Made by a program: the position numbers and the translations under genes. A stretch of DNA of 64,000 nucleotides from Pollenia angustigena (Eukaryota; Arthropoda; Insecta; Diptera; Polleniidae): the NCBI GenBank assembly GCA_930367215.1, contig OV884059.1, positions 239,071,803-239,135,802 of the forward strand, given 5' to 3'. Below are positions 4,628 to 50,543 of the stretch, piece after piece. The number at the start of each line of letters is the position of its first letter. Position 1 is the first letter of the stretch. The notes beneath the pieces are model-generated. The model had not been told where the DNA came from and made no database searches. It saw only the letters and a list, made by a program, of their open reading frames with translations.

Positions 4628-5171
4628 TAGTTGTAAATAAAAGCAGCTAATTGTGCTCTATTGAAATTGCACAACATGTAACACTTCTAGTGATTATAGG
4701 TAACATTAGAAAATGTTACATGTATATACTGTAACATATTTTTCTCAGAAAAGAAATCGCCATTAGTTTTTTAAATAAGATTCAACACCGGTACAACACC
4801 CTAAATACAAATAAACGACTTTAGTTTTTTAACGAATTTATATTTGTAAAAATATTGAAAAGAAGAGTCGGAAGACGGTTGTGACTACATTGTAAATTTA
4901 AATTTACAGTACTGTGACAACATTAAAAAAAAGAGTCGGAAGGCGCACATTTGGCGTTATCATTTTAAATAATCAGTATTGTGGTTATTTTGTTGAACTA
5001 TTTATGGTTTTTAATGCAAATTTTAAGTATTTTTATAATCAGGCTTAAGTTCATCAAATTTAATTTTCATTAAATTATTTTTATGAAGAAAGGAATTTTG
5101 CAACACGAAAATAAGTTAAAATTGTTATTGATAATTTTTCATTCTTGACGTGGCTGGGGCTCGAACCCTGG

Positions 5172-5226
5172 CCGGCAGGTTACCCTGACATGTTTCGATC
5201 GCAACCACTCGATCTCCTCAGATGGA
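5172..5226 (-). ncRNA. Hammerhead ribozyme motif, truncated at stem I
   Basis: Read on the minus strand, the CUGAGGA core, the 5-bp stem II, GAAA and the ACAUGUC cleavage region are all present. The inner stem I has one mismatch because ATGG has become AGGG, and the outer stem I strand is missing because the inversion junction lies right there. It is therefore probably weak or inactive. Confidence 0.65.
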
Positions 5227-5703
5227 TTATCAGTTATCAATAACAATTTTAACTTATTTTCGTGTTGCAAAATTCCTTTCTTCATAAAAATAATTTAATG
5301 AAAATTAAATTTGATGAACTTAAGCCTGATTATAAAAATACTTAAAATTTGGATTAAAAACCATAAATAGTTCAACAAAATAACCACAATACTGATTATT
5401 GTTAAAGCTAAGGCACGAGCTCTATGTATTCATTTGTCCTTCAAGTTGTGCTAAAAAAAAGGTCAACAAAAAAGAACGACAAAAATGAAAAAACAAACAA
5501 AAAATGTACTTCCGACTTCAAGAAGAATTCTTGACAAAAGTACGAGAAAGCAGAAGTAAGGAAAAAACACATTAAATCAATTAAAAATGGATAATTATAC
5601 AGAAAAGCAAATTTCGATCTTCCAAAGGTTAAAATACAATTTGGTTTAAGGATTGATGTTTGACTATTGACGTCAGCAGTCGTCGATGGCTGCGAGTGTA
5701 AGA

Positions 5704-5764
5704 CGGCAAATCCATCTGAGGAGATCGAGTGGTTGCGATCGAAACATGTCATGGTAACCTGCCG
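5704..5764 (+). ncRNA. Type I hammerhead ribozyme
   Basis: All conserved positions of a type I hammerhead are readable: CTGAGGA (5715-5721), a perfect stem II GATCG/CGATC around an 8-nt loop, GAA, then ACATGTC with predicted cleavage after C5750. Stem I has two parts, CCAT/ATGG and CGGCA/TGCCG, separated by an internal loop, the place where loop-loop contacts usually form. Stem III is the palindrome ACATGT, too short to close as a hairpin, so cleavage would be expected to be favoured in dimers. Confidence 0.88.
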
Positions 5765-6004
5765 GCCGGGGTTCGAGCCCCAGCCTCGTCAAGAATGAAA
5801 AATTATCAATAACAATTTTAACTAATTTTCGTGTTGCAAAATTCCTTTCTTCATAAAAATAATTTAATGAAAATTAAGTTATCATTTTAATATTGTGAAA
5901 ACATTGTAAATTTGGTAAACAGTACGTTGTATTGTTGTTGATAGTACCCCCTGCAACGGCGGCACAGCGTCGTGGTGGTTGTATTTTTCTGCCTGGGCAT
6001 ATTC

Positions 6005-16115: not shown

Positions 16116-18685
16116 TTATCGCTCATCTAATTGAGTAAGTGCTGCAGTGTCTCTTCTTCTTAAGCGAGTGTGGCCGCCATGATTTAAAATATTTCGAGCT
16201 AGTGGATTTGGGTGTTGTTCAAGCCTTTTTAAATATTTTATTGCATATTTTGTAATCATAGATTTCACTAATGGCACATTGAGATCCTTATGAATGTTTG
16301 AGTTTTTAACATACCAGGGAGCTTTAAGATAGAGTTGTAAAGTAGAAGCTTGCAATCGAGACTAAGGACAGAATTTCTTCCAATAAGCCAATGAATTTGA
16401 ATGGCTTTTAGTTTCATTTGAGTTAATTTTGCCTCTATATGGCATTTCCACGTTAATCGCCGATCCAGATGTATACCGAGATATTTAACATGCGAATGTT
16501 GAGGAATTATTTGATTATTGATTGTAATAGGGGGGCAAGATTCCCGGCGCAAAGTGAATGTTATATGTACACATTTTTGCTCATTGACCATTATCCTCCA
16601 TTGTCTTAACCATATTTCTAGTTGAAATATATGATGCTGTAAGTAACGCGATGCTTCATAACGATTGTCGTGGACGCTTAGAAAAGCTGTATCGTCTGCA
16701 AATGTTGAAGTTTGTGTGTAGTTGCTTGTTGGCATGTCCGAAGTATAAATTAAGTATAATAGGGGGCCCAGGATGCTGCCTTGTGGGACTCCAGCGGCAA
16801 TGGGCTGAGGTGAACTTAAGAAATTTCCTTCTTTAATAATAAATTGACGACCGACTAAGTAGCTTTCTAGCAGCTTGTGTGTGTTTGCTGGTAAATTTTG
16901 CTTCAATTTGTGTAATAAGCCTTCATGCCAGACTTTGTCAAAAGCTTGCGAAACATCGATGAAGAGTGCTGAGCAATATTTCTTTTCTTCAAATGCTTTT
17001 CTTATGACATTTACTATTCGATGAGTCTGCTCGATTGTGCTGTGTTTTCTTCTAAATCCGAACTGATGGTTTGGAATACATCTATTTTCACTTAAAATTG
17101 GTGTTAATTTTGAAACTAATAATTTCTCAAACAGCTTTGACATATTTGATAATAAGCTAATAGGTCTATAAGACTCAACTTTTGTATGATCTTTACCTGG
17201 CTTTGGTATCATGGTAACTAAAGAAGCCTTCCATTTTTCAGGATAGTATTCAAGGCGTAAAATAGCATTAAAAATAAAAAGAATAATTTTCTTTGCTATG
17301 CGAGGTAGCTCCAAAAGCATTTTATTACTGATTTTATCAATACCAGGTGCCTTCTTAGTGTTTAAGTCACAAATAGCCTTTTCGATTTCTCTTATCTCAA
17401 ATCTGAGGGGAAAAGCTGCTCTAGCATCAACAGGTGGTAACTCGACCGCAATATTGTGAGATATATTTGGTGTAAATACGTTTTTCAAATGATTTACAAA
17501 CAAGTTTCCTTTTTCATTATCATTTCTTGCCCAACTACCATTCAAGTTTCTTAATGGTGGCTTAGATATAACTGGCCTTTTTAGATTTCTAGCTGCACGC
17601 CATAATGAGTAGTCAGATTGTGGAGTTGCATCAAGTTCCTTAAGATATTTTTCTAGAGAAGCCGTTTTCTGATTCTGTAGTAACTTTCTTAGCCTTTTTG
17701 TGCATTCTTTTAATAAAATCTTAAGTTGCGGGGATCTGTAAAGTTGCCACTCTCTTCGAACTCTCCTTTTTTCAGTCAAGAGCCGCTCGACATCTGAAGA
17801 ACATATTTTATTATTTTTAATTTTTTTGGGGGTAACGCTGGAGTGTTGAACAGCTAGTTTAAGATAACTGTCAAAGTTAACAAGAGAGAGATCCACATTC
17901 TCCGGTGTACTAAGCGGAATATTTTCTGTGCAATGGGCACTGAGAAATTTTTTATATTTTAACCAATTTATTTGTGTGGCTGGCGTCGCTAAGTAACCTG
18001 ACGGAAATACAATTCTATTTGGGTTCGATATAGTAACAATTGTAGGTGTGTGGTCGGATGATAATTCTAGGGAAGCTTCAACATGAATCGTTTCTGTGGG
18101 GATGTTTTTAACCACGCCAAAGTCGATAACATCTGGAATTTTTTGCTGATCAGTAGGCCAATATGTTGGTTGCCCGCTCGCGACCACATTTAAACCCATT
18201 TTAGAGATTGTGTTAAACAAAACACGACCTTTTGGTGTTATAAGTCGTGACCCCCAGAAGGTATGTTTAGCGTTATAATCGCCAGCGGCCAGAAAACAGG
18301 GTCCTAATGATTTATAATATTTATAATATTGGCCTTCTGATATGGAAAATCTAGGTGGAGAGTATAAAGAAGAAATTACTATGTTTCGATTTAGCTCCTC
18401 AACACAAATAGTCGTTGCTTGCAGATAGTCTTCACGGTGATCACACATAATGTAGTGTTTGACTCGAGTTTTTATTAAGATGGCAGAACCTCCACAAGCT
18501 CTATCTCGAGGGTCCTTGGTATCATATAGTATATAACCATTGATTTTAAACGTATTTCTTGAGGTCAAATGAGTTTCAGAAATCATCATGACATCAATTT
18601 GTTTATTTTTAAGAAAGTATTCTAATTCATTTTTATGTTGGCGGATGCCGTTTGCGTTCCAAAAACAAATTTTTAAACAGTTCAT
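16116..18685 (-). pseudogene. ORF2 (endonuclease-reverse transcriptase) of jockey-clade LINE, frameshifted
   Basis: An open frame of 805 residues starts at 18685. Residues 1-220 are an APE-type endonuclease: FWNANGI, SETHLT, GDYNAKHTFWG and SSDHTP carry the catalytic Asn, Glu, Asp and His positions. The reverse transcriptase spans about 440-730 with YRPISLL, DVSQAFDKVWH, GVPQGSILGPLLY and the catalytic FADD. The frame then shifts near 16320-16330, and the family's C-terminal PWYVKNSNIHKDLNVP and HPNPLA segment continues in another frame to a stop at 16116. Compared with jockey proteins about 40 residues between the two parts are missing, so a small deletion probably caused the shift. The product would lack its C-terminus. 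Confidence 0.87.
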
Positions 18686-18766
18686 GGTTTGTTAAGTACA
18701 GCTTGCAATAACATCGATTGCATTCTAAGCATTTCCTGCATCATATTACCCATTGTGTTCGTAAAA

Positions 18767-20200
18767 TTATTTACTGTTTGCACTAATGTTTCCATGGTTT
18801 TTTTCTAAACGACTTAAATTAGAAACCGGAGTTTCATCATTACTTGGCGAGGCACCTTGCATTGGCTGATGGTTTGATTTTAGGACGTTAGCGTAAGAGG
18901 TTCTGTTATTACTAGGCTGGGGGGCTTGAATTGCATTTGTGTTTACCTGATTTGCAACCTGCATTTGAGGGGTATTTGTTTTCGGTCCAACCGTCTGCTT
19001 GACAATATTATATACTGGACATCCTCTATAATTGGCAGTGTGATTACCGCCACAGTTGCTACATTTTTTTACGTTGGGGTCGGTTTTAGACTTATCGCAA
19101 GAAACTGTACCGTGTAGTTCACCACATACTACGCAGACAGGGGGTAAGTAGCAGTATGCCTTGGTATGGCCAAATTCTTGGCAGTTTAAGCACTGAACAG
19201 GTCCATTTTTTTTGTGCGGCTCTTCTATAGTTATTCTTCTGTAGAGAATATATTTTAAATTGTAAATAGGATGTGTTTCGTTTTTTTTAAGTTTTACGTC
19301 GCCGGGTTCAAACTCCACTCGAAAAAGTGGTTGGGGAATTTTTTCTCTATTTTTAATATTTACTACATGTTTTACCTTGAAGCCTTTTTCTTCTAGGAAT
19401 GTTTTAACCTCTTCTGGGTCCACACATGAGTCAATACCCTTAATCACTACCTGTAGACCTTTACTGCTTTTCAGTTGGTAGGTATAAAAGTTTTTTTTAA
19501 GCGTTTCAAAGTTGTTTACTATTTTGCGAAAATCATTCTCATTATTGACTTGTATTTTTGTCTCGTTTATACTTCCACGCTTTATAGCCGCTACGTAAAA
19601 CGAATTTTCACCTATCACCGATATCAAACTCTTTATGAGCTCATTTGAATTTTGCTCCCTTAGATATATCGGGGGAGGCTTGGATGGTTTAATGACGTTT
19701 GGTACTTCAGAGGATTCATCCTCCAGAATTGCAAAACGATTTTGAGTATTTATTTTATCAAAAGATGGTACTTTTGAGGCCGAAGCAACTGCTGCAGAGG
19801 TAGGGCTGCGTCCCCGTTTAAGCACTGTTATGTACCTGTCCATACCAACTTGTACTGTAGGCTTTTGACAACTTTTTACAGGGGGGTTTTCCATTGCATT
19901 TGTGTTTGAGTTCATGGTATCATTTCCCACTAAATTTGTTTTTGACGTCACGGCAATACTTGCTGGCCTGGCAACACTTGTCACCAAATCTTGTTGTAGT
20001 TTTTTTAATGAGTCACTATCCACCGTTTGTGTAAATACCGAGGGTGAGAGGGAACGTGTTCGAGTAATTGGCTTAGCCGTTAGGTAGTTAATATTGTTTT
20101 GTTTTGTTTTATTTATTTCTGCATTATTTTCATTTGCATTAACTAAAACGTAAACGTTTCTTTCATTTTGTCTTAGTGTTGTTTCACTGTTTGTACTCAT
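18767..20200 (-). CDS. ORF1 (Gag-like nucleic-acid-binding protein) of jockey-clade LINE
   Basis: The 477-residue reading frame is intact. Residues 1-180 are polar and low in structure. Residues about 235-330 match the layout of the PRE_C2HC/RRM-like domain of jockey ORF1, including the VVIKGIDSCVDPEEVK segment. Three CCHC-type knuckles follow at about 336-392 (CLNCQEFGHTKAYC, CVVCGELHGTVSC, CSNCGGNHTANYRGC). In this family ORF1 coats the element's RNA and forms cytoplasmic or nuclear RNP particles. The tail is Asn/Gln-rich. The first ATG precedes a continuous frame and no better start is visible. It lies upstream of ORF2 with an 80-bp gap, and reinitiation is the usual way ORF2 is made. Confidence 0.88.
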   Translation of the reverse strand: MSTNSETTLRQNERNVYVLVNANENNAEINKTKQNNINYLTAKPITRTRSLSPSVFTQTVDSDSLKKLQQDLVTSVARPASIAVTSKTNLVGNDTMNSNTNAMENPPVKSCQKPTVQVGMDRYITVLKRGRSPTSAAVASASKVPSFDKINTQNRFAILEDESSEVPNVIKPSKPPPIYLREQNSNELIKSLISVIGENSFYVAAIKRGSINETKIQVNNENDFRKIVNNFETLKKNFYTYQLKSSKGLQVVIKGIDSCVDPEEVKTFLEEKGFKVKHVVNIKNREKIPQPLFRVEFEPGDVKLKKNETHPIYNLKYILYRRITIEEPHKKNGPVQCLNCQEFGHTKAYCYLPPVCVVCGELHGTVSCDKSKTDPNVKKCSNCGGNHTANYRGCPVYNIVKQTVGPKTNTPQMQVANQVNTNAIQAPQPSNNRTSYANVLKSNHQPMQGASPSNDETPVSNLSRLEKNHGNISANSK

Positions 20201-20702
20201 GCAAAGAGTTGTTTTTGTTTTTCACCGTTTTGCTTTGCTTTAATATTTTTATTATTTATTGTATTTTACAACAACAAAAGAAAAAACCAGAATTTAAATG
20301 TTTTGTTCAGAATATGTTTACACATGTATGAACATTCATACGTACATACATATATATTTTTACTGTTTTATTTAATTTAATTTTATCGTTTTAAATTGTT
20401 CACTATTATGTTAAGTAATTTAAATAACAAAATATATTATTTTTTTTTTAAGCGTCCATTCGCTGCTTATATTTATGTATGTATTACAAAATCAAATGTG
20501 ATTAATTAATAGTTCAAATCGTATGCGGGGCTAAAAATACACGTCTGTATCACAACAAAGCACAAACCGAACTGAAAGTGTGGGCTTTTTTAGCAGTGGA
20601 ACTTGTCGGCTTTTTATTTTTGATTTTTTTTTTTAAAGGAAAAAGGCAAAATTTGGCTGCTTTTGCTAATATGGCGATAGCATTTTAAACCCTGGATATA
20701 CG

Positions 20703-25458: not shown

Positions 25459-26132
25459 ATAAATAATTAGTATTGTGGTTATTTTGTTGAACTATTTATG
25501 GTTTTTAATCCAAATTTTTAATATTTTTAATTAGGCTTAAGTTCATGAAATTTAATTTTTATTAAATTATTTTTATGAAGAAAGGAATTTTACAACATGA
25601 AAATCAATTAAAATTGTTATTGATAATCTTTCATTCTTGACGTGGCTCGGGCTCGAACCCTGGCCGGCAGGTTACCATGACATGTTTCGATCGCAACCAC
25701 TCGATCTCCTCAGATGGATTTGCCTTCTTACACTCGCAGCCATCGACGACTGCTGACGTCACTAGTCAAACATCAATCCTTAAACCAAATTGTATTTTAA
25801 CATTTGGTAGATCGAAATTTGCTTTCCTGAATGATTATCCATTTTAATTGATTTTACATATTTTTTCCTTTACTTCTGTTTTTTCGTACTTTCGTCAAGA
25901 ATTTTTCTTGAAGTCCAAGTACATTTTTTTGTTTTTTTCCACTTTGTCTTTCTCTTTTCTGTTGACCTTTTTCAGCACAACTTGAAGGACAAATGTACAC
26001 ATAGAGCTCGTGCCTTAGCTTTAACAATAATTAGTATTGTGGTTATTTTGTTGAACTATTTATGGTTTTTAATCCAAATTTTTAATATTTTTAATTAGGC
26101 TTAAGTTCATGAAATTTAATTTTTATTAAATT
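25459..26132 (-). mobile_element. Hammerhead-bearing non-autonomous retroelement, copy 2
   Basis: About 1.2 units of the ribozyme-bearing repeat lie on the minus strand. The first 105 bp (from TTAGTATTGTGGTTATTTTG) are repeated 564 bp later at 26031-26132, so the insertion is a partial tandem copy. It contains one intact hammerhead (25666-25724). No target duplication is obvious at this locus. No protein is encoded. Confidence 0.8.
25666..25724 (-). ncRNA. Type I hammerhead ribozyme
   Basis: On the minus strand the motif reads GGCAAATCCAT, CTGAGGA, stem II GATCG/CGATC with an 8-nt loop, GAA, ACATGTC and ATGG...TGCC. All core residues are intact and predicted cleavage falls between 25679 and 25678. 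The outer stem I has 4 bp here instead of 5. Confidence 0.87.
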
Positions 26133-27703: not shown

Positions 27704-27728
27704 ATTACGTCAGTCAATTTAAACTATA

Positions 27729-28772
27729 ATGGAGTCTGAATCTAAGATTGAAAAATTGAATGACGCAAGTCAATGGTCAACATGGAAGTTTCAAGTTAAA
27801 ATCACATTGATTGCTGCAGATGTTTATGAAGCAGTTACTGGGGATGAAGAATGTCCACAAAATGATGATTGTAAGATTCGTGCGTGGCGAAAAAAGGATG
27901 CCAAGGCTCAACAAATTATAGGGATTTCGGTTGGAGATATACATATTACTAATTGTGATTCTGCTAAAGCTATGTGGACTAAAGAAAGAAAAAATGAATC
28001 TAGTTTGTTAATGCTTCATCAACAGTTTTTTAATTTTACGAAAGACGCTGGTGAAAATATGATATCCTACATTGCAAGACTTGAAGAATTGGTTCAACGT
28101 TTAAGAGATTTAAAAGAAACAATATCAGATGATATGGTAATAACAAAGATAATACTATCCCTACCTTCTGAATATGCAGCTTTTAGTAGTGCATGGAAGT
28201 CAGCAAGTAAGATAGAACGCACATTAAATACCCTTAGATCAAGATTAGTTATTGAAGAAGAACGTTCAATCTGTCGTGGACAAATTGAGCGAGTTGAAGC
28301 ACTGACTGCATCAAAGGGTTTATAAAATTATAGTAATAAAGGTGTTAAAAATGCAAAGAAAAGTAAAACTTGCCACAATGGTGGCAATTTAAATAATTTC
28401 AGACCTAATAGCCGATGTTACATATGTGGTGAAGAAGGTCATTGGAAGCATAATTGTCCTGAACGCAACTCGACTAGAAATTTTACAGCTTTAAATTCCG
28501 ATGCCAATGATTTCAAAGTTACAAATAATAATTGGTTATCAGACTCTGGTGCAAGTCATCACATGACATCTAATCGTTGCTGGTTTCATTCTTATCATTC
28601 AGAAGTAGGAAATGTACAAAATTCAAGAGGCACTATTCAAGCACATGGAATTGGAACAATTTACGTAAGAATATTTGATGATGTAAATTGGAGAAATGGA
28701 ATTCTTAAATTCTTAAACAAATTTATTTTCACAAAACCATGCTTTGGATCAGGGTTTAAGTGTCGAAGGTAA
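27729..28772 (+). pseudogene. copia gag and protease region
   Basis: A 198-codon frame from ATG 27729 is the capsid-like Gag part (the IEKLNDASQWSTWKFQVK start is typical of copia-type UBN2 Gag). It ends at a TAA (28323-28325) that lies in frame before the rest. The same frame continues into a CCHC zinc knuckle (CYICGEEGHWKHNC, near 28419-28460) and the aspartic protease active site WLSDSGASHHM (near 28533), then degenerates. The stop appears to be a point mutation. In intact elements Gag packages the RNA and the protease processes the polyprotein. Confidence 0.85.
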
Positions 28773-29653
28773 CAGCAATGAAATAAAATTTAAGCGAAAA
28801 TCTGATCAAAAGGTTGTTGTTGATGGACAATGTCATGGAAATGTAACTGTTGTCTGTATAAAAGTATTAATTACTCAGGCTTATTTAGCAACAAACGAAA
28901 ATTCAACACTAAATCTATGGCACGAAAGATTAGCCCATCAAAATAATGAACAAATTCGAAAAATTTTGAAAGAAAATAATATCTCTTACGAAGATAATAA
29001 TTTTGTGTGTGAAGCTTGCATGTATGGGAAACATCATAGAAGTAGTTTTAAAGTTCGTGAAATTGTATCAAATAAGTGTGGTCAAATTGTTCATGCTGAC
29101 GTTTGCGGACCAGTTCAAGTTGAATCTATTGGTGGTTCAAGGTATTTTCTTATTATAAAAGATGATTTTTCTCATTATCGTTTCGTTTTTTTTTATGAAA
29201 TATAAATCTGAGAGATTAGCAAAAAATTCATATGGCCATTATATAAAAATTTTTCGTTCTGACAATGGAACTGAATTTGTAAATAATAAAATGAAAAAGC
29301 TATTTGAAAACGAAGGTGTTCGTCATCAAAGAGCTGTCCCTTTTACTCCACAGCAAAACGGTTCTGCAGAAAGGGAAATAAGAACTATTATGGAAGCTGC
29401 TCGTACAATGATTTATGCAAAAGACATTCCCTTAAAATTTTGGGCAGAAGCAGTTAACACAGCTGTATATGTAATCAATCGCTCAGGAACTAGTACTGTG
29501 ACAAAGAAAACTCCTTACGAACTCTGGATGGGTAAAAAGTGTAAAATAATTTTTTTTATGCCATTTGGTAGTGAAATTTTTACTCACATACCTAAAGGAA
29601 AACGAAGTAAATTAAATGCTAAATCAGAAAAGTGCATCTTTGTTGGTTATGAT
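28744..29653 (+). pseudogene. copia integrase region, frameshifted and interrupted
   Basis: A frame from about 28744 holds the GAG-pre-integrase zinc domain (LWHERLAH ... CEACMYGKH) and the first catalytic Asp in IVHADVCGPV. A T-rich run near 29190 shifts the frame. The next frame (29162-29656) carries the second Asp in FRSDNGTEF and the Glu in NGSAEREIR, completing the D,D-35-E set. The sequence KCIFVGYD is then cut by the hAT insertion. Integrase would insert the cDNA, but this copy cannot make it in one frame. Confidence 0.87.
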
Positions 29654-30334
29654 TAGGGTATTCATTCGGTTAACCGTTAATCGGTTAACCGATTAATTAC
29701 TACCCGATTAACTGATCGGTTAATTTAAAATTGGCTATTTTCGATTAACGATTAAACCGGTTAATTTCAGTCGGTTAACCGATTAACCGATGTAATAAAA
29801 TTTTGAATTTGTTTGTAGATCATAATATTTTTTTTGTGTGTTTAAATTATTTTTTTTCATCTCATATACAAAAGTTATGTGATTAGAAAATATTTTTTCA
29901 TACAATATATTTCCTACATTCTTAAAGTACAGTACAAAAAGAAACTTAGGAATTCGGAAATAAATTTTTTGCAAAATGTTCTGTGCTGAGCTTTGCTAGG
30001 ATGAGTCATATGATGACCTAACAACAGAAGAGACTTTCGATAATAACGCAAACAACCTTTTAACAGAATAAGAGTAAACCATTAGAAGTGTTAAAAATTT
30101 AAAAAAAATTAAAACAGGACTTTAATGGCCTAATGGAAGATCTTTAGTTTTTCTATATCTGTGGCATTTTGACAAAACATCTTAACCCTGCTGTTAAGTT
30201 AGAAAAAACTTACGAATGTTAGGTTAATGGACCATTTGGTACATATAAACAGCTAATGTAAAAAACATGTATGGGATATCCCTTTTTTGTTTTTTTTATC
30301 AATATAGATTAAATATGTAAAAGGCAATTGTGGG

Positions 30335-30880
30335 ATGCCTCGTTTTTTGATTTTTGTTGTCAAGAAATACAAATATTTGCAGTTCAGTTTGTGTGTTGTT
30401 TCTAACGGTTCAGACATGAACTTTGGGACCGTTGGCAATTACTTCTCCCAATGTCTTACAATTGTCACGAAAATGTCACCATTAATAAGCAAATTGTTGC
30501 ATTCAACATCAAAACCAGAAAAATATGAATCGAAATTTTGGTTATCGGTGTACTTTAAGTCAGGCTACAAATGGAAAATACAACCATACCTTGGTAAGTC
30601 TAGAAATGCACAGCCTGAAAAGAACCAAGGGCAACACGTTGTATTGGACTTGACAGAAGGCTTGAATGGGCAAAATATAACAGGCGACATTTTTTTCCAA
30701 TTTTGAGTTGGTAAAAAACTTCAGGAAAAGAAACTTACATATGTAGGGTTTTAAGGTGGCGTAGATACTGCTGATCATATGGTTGGTTCCTACAGCACAA
30801 AACGCAAAACAAATCGATGGCCAAACATGTATTTGGAAACATACTTGATATGTCCGCTTTGAAGGCATACATACTATTTT
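30335..30880 (+). pseudogene. piggyBac transposase fragment (DDE_Tnp_1_7)
   Basis: Translation from about 30365 gives SVYFKSGYKWKIQPYLGKSR, then PEKNQGQHVVLDLTEGLNGQ and NITGDIFF, matching the core of piggyBac transposases, with Ile-Phe-Phe where an intact family member has Asn-Phe-Phe after the catalytic Asp. After a stop and frame change, GVDTADHMVGSYSTKRKTNR (near 30755) matches the next conserved block. Several stops and missing stretches show it is inactive. Confidence 0.8.
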
Positions 30881-31138
30881 ATAAATAAATAAAATAAATT
30901 TTTCTAAATTACAATGGAACAAAATAATAGCTACGTTTTACACTCAACACTAATGTGTATTTAGCGTGTTAAATATTGAATGCAAAGTTTGTACTAAAAG
31001 CGATATTCACCATGCTTGTAGCAATTTTCAACAATAAATTTTCTTATAATTCCAATAAACGTTAACAGCACTAATTTTCAATAATTAATGTCAGCTGTTG
31101 TTAAAAATTTTGCGACAAAAAAAATATAAGCAAAGTAA

Positions 31139-31533
31139 GTCCCCATTTACACTAGGGACATTTCTTGCCGGACAGACGAAGTTTGATGGCGAGGGGTCGA
31201 AAAGGTAGAGTGTGTAGTACATGACTATCTGTACTGAACATTTTTTCATTTCCCTTTTTTACTTTTCGTAGTTTACATAGTCCCAATTTACACTAGGGGC
31301 ATTTCTTGCCGGACAGACGAAGTTTGATGGCGAGGGGTCGAAAAGGAAGAGTGTGTAGTACATGACTATCTGTACTAGACATTTTTTCATTTCTCTTTCT
31401 TACTTTTCGTAGTTTACATACAAGTATTAATTTCTGTCTGACTTCTAATGTTTCATATGTAAACGCTTCAGGTAAGATTAAAAGAGAATTCAAAAAATGT
31501 CCGGCAAGAAATGTCCCTAGTGTAAATTGGGAC
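31139..31533. mobile_element. Harbinger-like MITE with duplicated left end
   Basis: The ends GTCCC(A/C)ATTTACACTAGG are inverted and TAA is duplicated at 31136-31138 and 31534-31536. The first 141 bp are tandemly repeated (31139-31279 and 31280-31420) with few differences, so the MITE has two left termini. It interrupts the piggyBac relic. Confidence 0.8.
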
Positions 31534-31791
31534 TAACTAAAAATCACAATATAACGCAAATTGTCCGCAAACACAAGAAAAAATGCTTACTTGCATAAAA
31601 AAGTACTTTACGCAGATGCAAAAAAGGGTATTATCTCACACTCAGTTATAACTGCGGGTAAGAAATGGAACAAATTTGCCATTTATTGTTGCAACATATT
31701 TAGAAAGAAAAACGACAACTTCTCACATTTTTGCATATATTTTTAGAATGGAATAAAAACCCGCACGAATGGTAGCATATATGGAACATTA

Positions 31792-31983
31792 TTGTCAGAA
31801 AAGAAAACACACAAGTCTGAGATAAAATGCTCCATTTGCAGCCAGTTTATTTGCAAAACTAACCGAAAAACATTTTGCTCATCATGCAATGAATATTATT
31901 ATAAATACTTATTTTTTTTAAATAAATGTAAAAAAATCAAAGAAAACCAAAGAACATATACTATGGACCAAATGGTCCCTTAA
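31792..31983 (+). pseudogene. piggyBac C-terminal Cys-rich domain fragment
   Basis: The KCSICSQFICKTNRKTFCSSC segment follows the layout of the cysteine-rich C-terminus found in piggyBac transposases. It lies on the same strand and downstream of the core fragment, on the far side of the MITE, as expected. The frame starts mid-protein. It ends in unrelated residues. Confidence 0.6.
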
Positions 31984-32875
31984 CCTAAGATTCGTAAATT
32001 TATATTTTTCTCAGTCCTGTTTTAAGTCAGAACCTAGAATTTTTGAAAAAACCGTTATTTTATAAAAAGACCACGTGAGCTAAAAAACTAAGTCAGTATA
32101 TATCACCCTTCAAAAATTACAAAGGAATAAATTCAAAAATTGGACCAAATGGGCTTAACCTAACAGCAGGGTTAAGTAGAGAAAAGATAGCAAAAAAGTT
32201 TTTAAAACAAACTCGGTGAAAAAATGATTTTTATCAAATAATTTAATACACCGAAATTAAAGAATAATTTCGTTTGTAATACAAAATTTTAAAAACGTGA
32301 GCAAAAATATTTTTTGAATGAAAATTTGTACGATTAACAACAATTTTTTTCAACTTTTTAAATTTGACTTAAGATGTTTTGTCAAAATGCCACAGATATT
32401 ATACGTTACTTTCGATTTCTCCAACATCTACGATAAATGAAAGAGTGCTTTCCAAGTGAAGTTTAATCGAAACAAATGAAAAGAATCGCCTAAATCCATA
32501 ACATAAAAACCAAATTGTTTTTCTAAAAGATTATTTTATAAGATCTCCTTAAACTATTGAAATAACTAAAAAATTATCTCACATTAAAAAATATGTATTA
32601 CATATTTATGAATTATTTTTTTGTTTGGTCGTTTGAGATCAAGAAATGTTATGTTTGTTTTGTTATTGTTGTTTTTTTTTACTATAAACTCCAAATAATA
32701 AAAAATGTTGCATTTTTATTTAATGAAATTACTAAATTTATAAGAACAACATCATTAATCGGTTAACCGATCAAAAACAAAATTAACCGATTATCAACCG
32801 ATTAAACCAAAACCTCGGTTAATTAATCGAGCGATTAACCGATTAAAGCAAAAGCCCGATTAAATGAATACCCTA

Positions 32876-33294
32876 GTTATGATGAAAATGTAAAGGGATA
32901 TCGTGTATGGAATCCCAACAAAAATATAATTGAATATTCAAGAGATGTAAAGTTATTTAATTCAGATTTAACTGTTATCAATGCCAAGAAAGAACGTTTA
33001 AAATAAAACGCTGTTTTAGAACTAGGGAAGGAAAATACAGATATAAAAATGGATATAAATGAAATTGATACCCACAATTCCGATAACGAAGATTTTAAAG
33101 ATGCTTGCGAAAATGTAGTTAGCAATGCTGACCCAAGTGAACCAGTTTTAGATTCAGAATTGGTTGAAAGTTCTAACAACAATAATGCCAATGATTTACA
33201 GCAAAATTTAATTGAAATAAAGCAAAATCAAAACACTCGACGTCTTAAGAAAAACACTAGAGAGCTTTCTTACTTGAACGAGCATAATATATAG
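32876..33294 (+). pseudogene. copia integrase C-terminus and linker
   Basis: After the hAT copy of the duplication the frame resumes with ENVKGYRVWNPN and SRDVKLFN, a conserved stretch at the end of copia integrases. A TAA at about 33003 interrupts it. The acidic, Asn-rich stretch up to 33294 corresponds to the variable linker before reverse transcriptase. Confidence 0.78.
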
Positions 33295-33356
33295 TAGAAA
33301 AACAGCTAAGAGACAAATCGAAACGTTTAATAAATACAACGGATGCTAGTGGTTTT

Positions 33357-34299
33357 GTGTCTTTGATTATGGAGGAACCTAAGAGTTTTAAACAAGCAAT
33401 GAGCTCTACAAATAAGAATAAGTGGTTAACTGCCATGAATGATGAAGTAAAATCTTTAGAAGAAAATCAAACATGGATTTTAGTAGAATCTCCACCAGGT
33501 AAAAAGATTATAAATAATAAATGGATATTTAAAATAAAGCATCGGTTAGATAAGAGTATAGAAAGATTTAAAGCTCGACTTGTTGCCCGTGGTTTTACCC
33601 AAGAAGACGGAATCGATTGCGAGGAAGTTTTTAGTCCTGTTGTAAAATTTACATAGATTCGTATACTTTTATCTCTAGGTTTAAATGATGGTACTGGTAA
33701 GTCTGCAAATTACAAAAAATTTTGTATGGACTTAATTAAGCAGGCAGCAGGCGTCACAGTGCTGGAATCTGAAATTCACCACATTTATTTAAAAATACAA
33801 ACTTAAACAATTGGAATCTGATTCATTTGTATTTGCGAATTTAGATAAAACTCTTATTTTGGCCTTGTATGTTGATGATGGATTAATTACAGCGATGTCT
33901 AAAGAACAAATAAAAAACGAAATTGCCTATTTACAAACTAATTTTGATGTAAAATTTTTTGAAGCTAAATGTTTCCTTGGCTTAGGGATAGGTCGTTATA
34001 CTGATAGGTCTATATACTTATGCCAACCGAATTATACTAAAAAGATTCTTAAAAGATTTAAGATGGATGATTGCAATGGAGTTTCAACACCCATAGATGC
34101 TAATCAAGTATTTGAAAGATTTGAGAATTCAAACAATTCTATTTGTCCATACCGAGAAACTGTTGGAAGTTTACTTTATTTAGCAATTGCCACAAGACCT
34201 GATTTAAGTTTTGCAGTGGGAGTTGTAGGTCGTTTTATGGATAGTCCTAATGAGGCACAAGTGAATGCTGTTAAGCGTATCTTAAAGTATTTAAAGGTA
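33357..34299 (+). pseudogene. copia reverse transcriptase, internally deleted
   Basis: The frame at 33357-33656 has the N-terminal RVT_2 block (EEPKSFKQAMSS, NKWIFKIKHR, ARLVARGFTQ, FSPVVKFT). The part that should carry the first catalytic Asp (the DVKTAF region) is missing or replaced between about 33680 and 33800. The frame at 33811-34299 retains the catalytic YVDDGLI, then LGLGIGRY and ATRPDLSFAVGVVGRFM, ending at ILKYLK where the TA-target element begins. Loss of a catalytic Asp means that reverse transcriptase activity is excluded for this copy. Confidence 0.87.
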
Positions 34300-35554
34300 C
34301 ACACAGAAAACAAATTGGTTGGGAAACGGTTGCAGTAATAAAATATTGATCAAGTAACATGATTTATTATTGCAACCATTAAAAATGTATAGTTCTAACT
34401 GATTTTTAATTCTCTTGATTATAAAAATGATGTTCCAACTGAAATATGATTCCTTCAATTCTTTTATTAGTTATGATAACTAATTTAATTAAGTTCTAAA
34501 AATTAGTACAAATGGTTAGAATCACAACCGAATTTAATATAGGGCAATACTGAATATTGGTCATTGCAATCAATAATTTGCTTTCGTCAATAAATTTTGT
34601 AATATAAATGATTATTCATTTATTGCAGCTAATTATTGATTGTTGGAATAGATTCAATTCGAGTACAACAAATGAAAATATAATTATTCGGAATTCACAA
34701 CCAAAAAATAGTTAAAAGCCCCAATTACTTACTAAATTTTCTGTCAAAACATTTGATAGATTAAATTAATTTTTAATATTTTATTTAAAAAATATCTTTG
34801 CGGTCAAAAATGGAAAATGTGAAAAACTTAATAAATAGGGGTAAGTAATTTACGTATTCTTATAGGTATTTACATATACACGTACATACATATGTTTGTA
34901 TGAACGTATGTATTTTTTTATACCCTGCAAATTATATTGGACTTCTTGATCCATTTTGATACTGGACTGGTCCAATGTAGTGCAAGTATGGACCATGTCA
35001 TTATTAAAAAGAGTTTGCAGTGAAACGACATGTCTTCCTTTTTAACGGCATGTTTTCGTTTTGAAACGATTTCAAAGCTAATCCTCTGGAGTATACCATG
35101 GAGTATGTTTTAAGACTTCCCCTTTGTAATGCAAGCTGGGTTATATGGTCCTGCCCTAGGACATCGTACTGTAAAATAAACCATATTTTCCATTCATTGA
35201 GATTACCTTTGGACAAGTCTTTGCCCCTTATGGGCTACATTTGACCGGTTAAAAAAATATATTGATAACGACAATCAAATCTCTTGTTATGAACACCAAT
35301 TATGTGTTAATTCAGGTACACCTATCATTTATTCGGGTATAAGCACAATTTTGTTTCTAATAATCATACTAACAACTCACAATATCTGTTGTTATGACTG
35401 ATAGTGTACTAAAATTCAAATGTTGCTATCAAACCTATTATGCTAAGCAACGAAATTTTCAGTAATTGGAACCGAATTGTGTGATAGTACATGCAACCGA
35501 CGAAATTCGATTGGCGCCAAATTCGGTTGTGATCACGAATCTGTTTTCTCTGTG
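34300..35554 (+). mobile_element. TA-target non-autonomous element, copy 2
   Basis: The element starts CACACAGAAAACA and ends TGTTTTCTCTGTG between TA duplications. It matches copy 1 (2350-3583) along its length. Its removal with one TA joins the two copia reading frames in register, so the insertion point is precise. Confidence 0.87.
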
Positions 35555-35556
35555 TA

Positions 35557-36066
35557 ACTACTTATTATGGACTTAATTTTAATACAAATACAAGTTTGAA
35601 GTTACTTGGATACAGTGACGCAGATTATGCGGCCGATAAAGAAACTAGGAGATCAATATCTTGTTATGTGTTTCTATTTGGTGAACATATTCTAAGCTGG
35701 GGTTCAGAAAGGCAAAAATCTGTTTCTTTATCAACCACAGAATCAGAGCATATAGCTGCAAGTACGGCCACAAAACAATTAGTTTGGCGGAAACGTTTGA
35801 TAAAGGACTTAACTTCTGTTACTATTTCAACTGAATTTAATATGGATAATCAAAGTGCAATACGAGTAATTAAGAATCCAGAATTTCATAAGCGCACAAA
35901 GCACATAGACGTGCGTTATCACTTTATTAGAGAAAAATATGAAGAAAATGTATTCCGTTTAAATTATGTTTCCTCCGATGAACAATTAGCGGACATTTTT
36001 ACAAAAGCCCTCCCTAAGTCAAGATTTGAATTATTAAGAAAATTAATTTATGTTAAAGAAAAATAG
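35557..36066 (+). pseudogene. copia RNase H region (open but detached)
   Basis: The frame runs open from the right border of the inserted element to TAG at 36066. GYSDADYAADKETRRS, SLSTTESEHIAAS, MDNQSAIRV, KHIDVRYHFIRE and LADIFTKAL are the standard RNase H blocks of copia polyproteins, with the catalytic Asp and Glu present. It no longer has a start or an upstream protein in this copy. Confidence 0.87.
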
Positions 36067-48920: not shown

Positions 48921-49476
48921 AGCTTTTACTTTAAATATATATTTATGGTGAAAAAATTGCAAATAATACATAATATTCGTACTTCATGTAAAAAAACTTT
49001 ATACATAACAGCCTGGAACAATGGCAAGGTATTTTAAAATTCTTTTAATTAGAAAAAAAATGTTTTTTTTTTTTAATAAAAGTACCTGAATTGAAACAAA
49101 TAAAAAATTGTATAACATACAAAAAAAAATAATTTGACTGCACTTTTTTAAACGCTGAATATGAGTGTTTCTTTGAGAATAGCTAAGTTGTATATGACTA
49201 TAAATGAAAAGATTTTTTCTCTGCGTGTACCCCATTAGTGGCTTTAGTTATTTATGTTTCTGGTTGAAAACCATTTCAATGAAAATGTATTCCGGTTAAA
49301 GGAGTTAAACATGCAGAGAAACTTGAAAACACTTGTTTAATGTGGATATCCTTTGTAAAATTTCTCAGTAAAATAATAATAATAATAATAATAACCAAAT
49401 GTTAAAATACAATTTGGTTTAAGGATTGATGTTTGACTAGTGACGTCAGCAGTCGTCGATGGCTGCGAGTGTAAGA

Positions 49477-49537
49477 CGGCAAATCCATCTGAGGAGATCG
49501 AGTGGTTGCGATCGAAACATGTCATGGTAACCTGCCG
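49477..49537 (+). ncRNA. Type I hammerhead ribozyme
   Basis: Core: CTGAGGA at 49489-49495, stem II GATCG (49496-49500) with CGATC (49509-49513), GAA at 49514-49516. The palindrome ACATGT at 49517-49522 stands for stem III and C49523 is the cleavage residue of a GUC triplet. Stem I pairs CCAT (49485-49488) with ATGG (49524-49527) and CGGCA (49477-49481) with TGCCG (49533-49537), around an AAT/TAACC internal loop. Every invariant position is present. Confidence 0.9.
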
Positions 49538-50037
49538 GCCAGGGTTCGAGCCCGATCCACGTCAAGAATGAAAGATTATCAATAACAATTTTAATTAATT
49601 TTCATGTTGTAAAATTCCTTTCTTCACAAAAATAATTTAATAAAAATTAAATTTCATGAACTTAAGCCTAATTAAAAATATTAAAAATTTGGATTAAAAA
49701 CCATAAATAGTTCAACAAAATAACCACAATACTAATTATTGTTAAAGCTAAGGCACGAGCTCTATGTGTACATTTGTCCTTCAAGTTGTGCTGAAAAAGG
49801 TCAACAGAAAAGAGAAAGACAAAGTGAAAAAACAAAAAATGTACTTGGACTTCAAGAAAAATTCTTGACGAAAGTACGAAAAAACAGAAGTAAAGGAAAA
49901 AACATGTAAAATCAATTAAAATGGATAATCATTCAGGAAAGCAAATTTCGATCTACCAAATGTTAAAATACAATTTGGTTTAAGGATTGATGTTTGACTA
50001 GTGACGTCAGCAGTCGTCGATGGCTGCGAGTGTAAGA

Positions 50038-50098
50038 CGGCAAATCCATCTGAGGAGACCGAGTGGTTGCGATCGAAACATGTCATGGTAACCTGCCG
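50038..50098 (+). ncRNA. Type I hammerhead ribozyme with one stem II mismatch
   Basis: It is identical in core and stem I to the copy 561 bp upstream. One change (GACCG for GATCG) creates a C-A mismatch in stem II. Predicted cleavage is after C50084. Activity may be reduced. Confidence 0.85.
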
Positions 50099-50282
50099 GC
50101 CAGGGTTCGAGCCCGAGCCACGTCAATAATGAAAGATTATCAATAACAATTTTTATTAATTTTCATGTTGTAAAATTCCTTTCTTCATAAAAATAATTTA
50201 ATAAAAATTAAATTTCATGAACTTAAGCCTAATTAAAAATATTAAAAATTTTGATTAAAAATTTCTCAGTAAAGTTAATATA

Positions 50283-50543
50283 TCAAGCCCTAACTGCGAA
50301 AATAACGTAAGCGATAACATTTTCAATTTTTGTTTTTTTAAATAACTGACTTTATTGGCAACAGTTGCATCATCTCCTAAAATGTCATGGTCACATAAGG
50401 TACCGTTGCGATTTTATAGCAAGAACAATTTTATTGTAAGCGACATTTTTCATACAAAATTTATATGAAATAAAATAAAAAATCTATCTCCTGTAAAATT
50501 TTATTTTTGGCGCTTACGTTATTTTCGCGGTTAGGGGTCGATA
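50283..50543. mobile_element. MITE with CCCTAAC.GCGAAAATAACG termini
   Basis: Inverted ends of about 30 bp (CCCTAACTGCGAAAATAACG left, the inverse of CCCTAACCGCGAAAATAACG right) enclose 260 bp. The target duplication is not clear. It starts 12 bp after the ribozyme element's duplication. Confidence 0.65.

Follow-up and report, generated by a model that had tools for sequence, protein, structure and literature searches.

What kind of element places two hammerhead-like motifs exactly 561 nt apart in fly DNA, and how does it move? We analysed a 64,000-nt stretch of the Pollenia angustigena genome (the window) and searched the genome for further copies. The reading that we favour, with a probability of roughly 0.8, is that the motifs belong to an animal retrozyme: a non-coding, non-autonomous retroelement that relies on the machinery of Penelope-like elements (PLEs) to move. 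Read directly from the sequence, both motifs run CCAT-CTGAGGA-GATCG-AGTGGTTG-CGATC-GAA-ACATGT-C^ATGG, with an outer stem I of CGGCA/TGCCG and with the exception of one stem II base in the second copy. Hammerhead 1 occupies 49477-49537 (+ strand), with its stem III palindrome ACATGT at 49517-49522 and predicted cleavage at 49523/49524. Hammerhead 2 (50038-50098, + strand; predicted cleavage at 50084/50085) has a stem II of GACCG/CGATC with one C.A mismatch and is otherwise identical. Each motif comprises CTGAGGA, a 5-position stem II, an 8-base loop, GAAA, ACATGT, C17 and a stem I split into CCAT/ATGG and then CGGCA/TGCCG. They thus show the CUGANGA and GAAA core, the U-H17 cleavage site and the three helices, with stem I open, of a type I hammerhead; stem III is either a palindrome or a single pair only, and both an internal loop in stem I and an 8-nt loop II are present. 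The preliminary description of two type I hammerheads that differ by one stem II base is borne out by this reading, and repeat analysis gives a spacing of exactly 561 nt.

Both strands were scanned under strict rules (CTGANGA, a stem II of 4 bp or more, GAAA, a self-complementary stem III, T-H17 and a stem I of 4 bp or more). This returned three matches in the window (5716, 49489 and, on the − strand, 25713), all within copies of the hammerhead element, and none in 200 dinucleotide shuffles of the sequence. Together with the direct reading, this upholds the earlier identification of hammerheads with a palindromic stem III. The copy at 50050 is missed by the strict scan because of its stem II mismatch. 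Comparison with the Rfam hammerhead models, which had been suggested as a check, gave a divided answer: no family was listed for the window at gathering thresholds, and in a permissive search of 49300-50400 the second copy matched Hammerhead_1 (RF00163) at 18.2 bits (E 0.33), below the threshold of 34, with no listing for the first copy. A complete lack of matches to hammerhead models, which the preliminary description had named as evidence against itself, was therefore avoided by a single sub-threshold match. The low score is probably due to the loopless stem III. We dropped stable folding as support for the hammerhead: it was absent from the lowest-energy folds of 130 nt, of 64 nt and of the 561-nt circle, the 130-nt fold was as stable as those of shuffles (z -0.15), and forcing the hammerhead on the 64-nt sequence placed it ~3.3 kcal/mol above the minimum.

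The two motifs lie in insertion A (49373-50257), which repeat analysis and the sequence itself show to be bounded by 16-bp target-site duplications (TSDs), AAAATTTCTCAGTAAA, at 49357-49372 and 50258-50273 (+ strand). From its 5′ junction, it consists of an (ATA)n tract outside the unit (49373-49393), a complete unit of 561 nt (49394-49954; GC 32%, non-coding) and a partial second unit of 303 nt (49955-50257) that ends at a short 3′ site (unit ~303-307), all on the + strand. The tandem is therefore one of 1.54 units in a bounded insertion, not an open-ended array. The longest ATG frame in the concatenated unit is of 56 aa, which, with the repeat spacing of 561, agrees with the earlier proposal of a 561-nt non-coding tandem unit. 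Along the + strand of the unit we located a hairpin GGG-TTCGAG-CCC that resembles a tRNA B box (49541-49554; 3′ foot at unit 162-163), the short 3′ end site (49687-49700; unit 294-307), an AC-rich stretch (49714-49740) before the long 3′ end site (unit 345-347), and a second predicted hairpin (49840-49878, unit 447-485; 3′ foot at unit 485-486). Shortly upstream of the ribozyme, a palindromic TGACGTCA at 49441-49448 recurs in the second unit and could be a promoter element.

The window holds other copies. Copy B (25462-26132, − strand) has 1.2 units, one hammerhead (25665-25725) and the long 3′ end; no TSD was detected for it. Copy C has two arms: the inverted arm (4968-5228, − strand), whose ribozyme is truncated on the 5′ side, terminates at the long 3′ site (unit 347), and the direct arm (5234-5885, + strand) ends at unit ~264 and carries one intact hammerhead motif. 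Its 13-bp TSDs, GTTATCATTTTAA, are at 4956-4968 and 5878-5890 (+ strand). A 39-bp micro-insertion (2260-2298, + strand; 24/24 match at 2259-2282), flanked by copies of ATAATTGTTA at 2250-2259 and 2299-2308, contains unit ~323-345 once and then its last 16 nt again. It contains nothing but the ~23 nt that precede the long 3′ site, in part twice over, and looks like an aborted insertion event. Elsewhere in the window, 16268-20221 (− strand) has two long frames (807 and 484 aa) that by eye resemble a non-LTR retrotransposon with a reverse transcriptase and a zinc-knuckle protein, and 27723-36066 (+ strand) has a chain of frames that by eye resembles a broken Copia-type retrotransposon.

A search of the 1.37-Gb genome with the unit found at least 40 places, a lower bound since the best 40 of 76 candidates were scored. 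Among the matches listed, the copies are dispersed over five large contigs and are built as tandem arrays, as head-to-head arms, or as both; the L016 array has at least five full units. A 101-nt query of the hammerhead region found 26 places, all at 97% identity or above, and distant relatives of the unit are therefore beyond its reach. For the analysis of insertion structure we parsed 39 scored genome loci and the three window copies, leaving out block matches shorter than 40 nt; these loci are the best-scoring ones, so that young copies are over-represented, and some of the parsed 5′ and 3′ ends may be breaks within a copy.

The 3′ termini fell into two groups. Of 64 that could be parsed, 32 lay in unit 335-372, with a peak at 345-347 (the long site), and 22 in 285-312, with peaks at 294-296 and 305-307 (the short site); 10 were elsewhere. 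TSDs of 12-20 bp were found at the outer ends of 15 two-armed loci, including L026 and L050. Three of these (L036, L037 and L039) have one mismatch in the TSD, and L039, although weak (control 0.075), was counted. In 15/15 of these loci, the 3′ end of exactly one arm lies at 344-351. That of the partner arm lies at 293-316 in 11 of them and at 105, 253, 264 or 271 in the remaining 4. This rule of one long and one short arm was seen in the same data in which it was counted, and 0.5^15 = 3e-5 is the most that independence allows rather than the result of a planned test. L027, treated as a nearby duplicate of L011, and L030 (13-bp TSD without a control; ends 353/273) were kept outside the 15, and the rule was not scored for L009, L012, L015, L038 and L041, whose second arm lies beyond the fetched stretch. 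Among the two-armed loci without a detected TSD, the pattern was kept in L024, L027, L031 and L045, and the two exceptions, L013 (348/367) and L029 (346/493), also belong to this group. TSDs were detected in 2/11 single-armed copies (L040 and insertion A) and not in the other 9.

Six of 69 parsed 5′ ends were at unit 162-163 and five at 485-486, the 3′ feet of the two predicted hairpins; a further 4/69 were at 182-183, away from both. None of the 69 coincided with the hammerhead cleavage site. The head-to-head junctions unite distant unit positions in L020 (107 with 485) and copy C (89 with 183), and close ones in L018 (148 with 163). A snap-back explains junctions of quite different unit positions less well than two copies that ended independently. 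The insertions carry the marks of PLE-type insertion: head-to-head or tandem structure, two adjacent 3′ ends and a tail on one arm.

We then compared arms and units within loci. The median divergence between arms of the same locus was 1.4% (51 comparisons), vs. 3.5% between copies from different loci (7326 comparisons). Both arms had two or more rare variants in common in 6/20 loci, vs. 6/371 cross-locus arm pairs; the numbers of common variants were 9 in WC, 6 in L022, 5 in L045, 4 in L028, 3 in L020 and 2 in L009. Exactly one was common to the arms in 4/20 loci and none in 10/20. The arms of L026 were 10.7% apart (6.4% average to other loci) and those of L036 6.7% (5.6% average to other loci). 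In 7/9 arrays, the full units had at least one rare variant in common, L013 and L015 having none. Where rare variants are common to the arms or units of a locus, they are what one monomer, most simply a circle, would leave behind on being copied repeatedly; the loci and arrays without any, and the divergent arms of L026 and L036, speak against the favoured reading.

Alternatively, genomic arrays may have given rise to the copies through multimeric transcripts that were linear or remained unprocessed, with the hammerhead dispensable, a possibility that we consider real though doubtful. It sits well with the free passage of arrays across the cleavage site and with the lack of parsed 5′ ends at that site, although a circle predicts the latter too. 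It also draws on the PLE of anole, whose hammerhead mutants, in the part of the published account used here, still insert in vitro and for which no RNA-seq reads begin or end at the presumed hammerhead cut (PMC11167929). The private variants common to units of 7/9 arrays, on the other hand, are unexpected on this account unless the source array was uniform; later homogenisation or gene conversion could mimic them.

A GIY-YIG search of the genome (best 150 of 493 candidates scored) found at least 19 places, one of them SLX1. The nearest named matches to an exon of this SLX1 gene come from Lucilia, Cochliomyia, Musca and Stomoxys, which makes a calyptrate fly likely. Pfam identified RVT_1 and GIY-YIG in one frame of L057, RVT_1 in L063, and GIY-YIG in L056 and L059. 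A minimal hammerhead with an ACGT stem III accompanies 16/18 of the non-SLX1 loci, that of L061 with a changed core base. Counted from the cleavage site, five copies of one local PLE family end at +74 to +80 and one at +120; in a second family, the ends of five copies fall within positions 163-186 of the alignment and show no clear second site, and the third family allowed one comparison only. At L056 (1021-3191), a PLE tandem junction runs from a GIY-YIG frame through a pseudo-LTR (pLTR) with a minimal hammerhead to a next open frame, which by eye contains a start region and has no Pfam match. On contig C14, at about 523-593 kb, many Penelope-like pLTR/ORF matches lie on both strands of a 70-kb stretch, ten of which end at the common query position 261.

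These genes raise the question of whether the unit is simply the pLTR of an autonomous PLE of this genome, whose coding copies exist and escaped detection. PLE pLTRs do carry hammerheads, tandem or inverted pLTRs are described as normal for PLEs in the text drawn on here (PMC3846280), and one unit copy (L050:732-1213; two arms ending at 296/346, 14-bp TSD) adjoins a Penelope-like endonuclease fragment. That copy is, however, itself bounded by TSDs, and in BLAST of the unit against the 19 GIY-YIG loci it was the exception among solely short matches of E 0.002 or worse. The hammerheads of the three local PLE families differ from that of the unit, with an ACGT stem III and a CCC/GGG stem I, and four PLE queries against the 39 unit loci and the window gave no match and no frame with reverse transcriptase plus GIY-YIG. 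Direct repeats of whole units also lack an ORF. We rejected a sequence kinship between the unit and the start regions of the local PLEs, which resemble it no more than chance by local alignment (P 0.50, 0.37 and 0.42 for the three families); a fixed-register comparison of the start region of one family gave P 0.004, a post hoc choice that amounts to a hint only. We therefore judge the pLTR explanation improbable.

Of the alignment rows, 95 (including the reference row) cover the ribozyme. Variability was 0.7% in core columns, 0.4% in loop II and 0.8% in the start-site stretch (321-340), vs. 2.5% for the non-ribozyme columns of unit 31-345; conservation is equally high (0.5%) in unit 21-40, which has no known role. 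The variability of stem II was 6.3%, because of a paired change at 106-117, where C-G occurs in 69 copies, T-A in 25, T-G in 2 and G-G in 1, i.e. a compensatory change. The T-A form marks a subfamily, and the compensatory change may therefore be a single (ancestral) event. The other helix pairs hardly vary.

The same region has some likeness to a tRNA, which could make the unit a tRNA-derived SINE whose hammerhead resemblance stems from tRNA-like arms, with AGTGGTTG as a D-loop-like element and GGTTCGAGCCC as a B box. The B-box consensus fits GGTTCGAGCCC at 49543-49553 exactly, and stem-loop II resembles an A box; stem-loop II and the hairpin after the ribozyme together fall within 49489-49554. 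ARAGORN (bacterial code) found no tRNA, however, and Rfam gave no tRNA family for 49300-50400 even at E 10, and on these grounds we rejected this reading. The CTGAGGA/GAAA core, stem III, stem I and the covarying stem II are moreover foreign to tRNA, and tandem units with internal 3′ ends are not SINE-like; a tRNA origin is very unlikely. Still harder to credit is that recombination alone spread a satellite DNA that carries a hammerhead by chance. The array of at least five full units (L016) would speak for this; the TSDs, the recurrent 3′ ends, the dispersal of copies on five large contigs and the 0/200 result in shuffles speak against it.

We return, then, to a non-coding retroelement moved by PLEs, for which self-cleavage, a circular RNA and dependence on PLEs are inferred. 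Every GUC of a multimeric transcript would be a point of self-cleavage, which would probably take place as two units pair via their self-complementary ACAUGU stem III, and the 561-nt monomer would be closed into a circle by a host RNA ligase. The PLE protein, a reverse transcriptase with a GIY-YIG endonuclease, would make a staggered break and start priming at unit ~346 for one of the DNA strands, with ~296 or a more upstream point of the RNA as the start for the other. The circle would be copied round once or several times, with copying stopping now and then at RNA hairpins, and the two arms would finally be united head to head.

More tentatively, each two-armed insertion may hold two copies of one circular RNA: the halves of a PLE dimer would each copy it from a different strand of the staggered break, one using the long site and the other the short site; we hold this to be possible rather than probable. 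The available account of the anole PLE describes both strands as cut and extended and two adjacent internal RNA start sites, with the strands alike in start site and a hammerhead that cuts only when protein is added (PMC11167929). The lack of a strand difference there and the loci without common variants weaken this two-strand, two-site reading, and the anole strand, hammerhead and read results together speak against parts of the proposed mechanism. In Penelope/Poseidon elements, pLTRs in inverted orientation have been described, one of which carries a tail, with self-priming as the favoured explanation, and a gene between pLTRs has been moved in trans, according to the part of that work cited here (PMC3846280).

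The unit shares much with these PLEs as far as their published descriptions were available: head-to-head arms, partial tandems, TSDs, AT-rich targets, two adjacent 3′ ends that yield an optional tail, and a hammerhead in the repeated unit (PMC11167929, PMC3846280). Unlike them, it has no reverse transcriptase or GIY-YIG frame, and unlike the minimal ACGT type of the local PLEs, its hammerhead combines a longer stem I with a stem III that is a 6-nt palindrome.

Metazoan non-LTR retrozymes, in the sections of the source used here, are likewise non-coding, low-GC tandem repeats (32% in the unit) with type I hammerheads, and their TSDs, when present, exceed 4 bp, compared with 12-20 bp in our two-armed loci and 16 bp in insertion A (PMC7229834). 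The same sections report circular RNAs and a weak stem III in amphibians, including a single-pair stem III with a palindromic tetraloop in the axolotl Amex1 retrozyme, which the fly motif resembles, and name PLEs as strong candidate movers on indirect grounds. The fly unit, at 561 nt vs. ~170-400 there, is larger, and its head-to-head arms and two-state 3′ end go beyond what those sections document (PMC7229834).

The SMalpha SINE-like/W-elements of Schistosoma also place a type I hammerhead in a short non-coding repeat; the SMalpha-like W36.2 is 335 bp, and a head-to-head, PLE-like structure is not described in the part of that source used here (PMC8490949). Plant LTR retrozymes are comparable as non-autonomous hammerhead retroelements thought, in the text cited, to use circular RNA (PMC4918200). 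They have type III hammerheads, LTR features, 4-bp TSDs and a GC content above 55% (PMC7229834, in part), unlike the fly unit with its type I motif, no LTR features seen, 12-20 bp TSDs and 32% GC. A literature search covering titles and the beginnings of abstracts found no such unit described in a calyptrate fly.

The link to PLEs and retrozymes drawn in the preliminary description holds up. That description did not recognise that the pair sits in a retroelement bounded by TSDs, with many copies in the genome, inverted arms and two sites for the 3′ end. Retrozymes themselves, and PLEs as their proposed movers, were already known; the insertion evidence is new. Finding PLE-type insertion marks on a non-coding hammerhead unit bears on how animal retrozymes insert, and many of the arms and array units look as if single RNA monomers had been copied repeatedly. 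If the two-strand reading is true, the PLE 'tail' would reflect a built-in rule of priming at two sites on two strands rather than an optional extension, and the natural template would be circular hammerhead RNA. The unit family offers a compact natural data set on which templating by circular RNA and the priming of two strands by PLEs can be tested.
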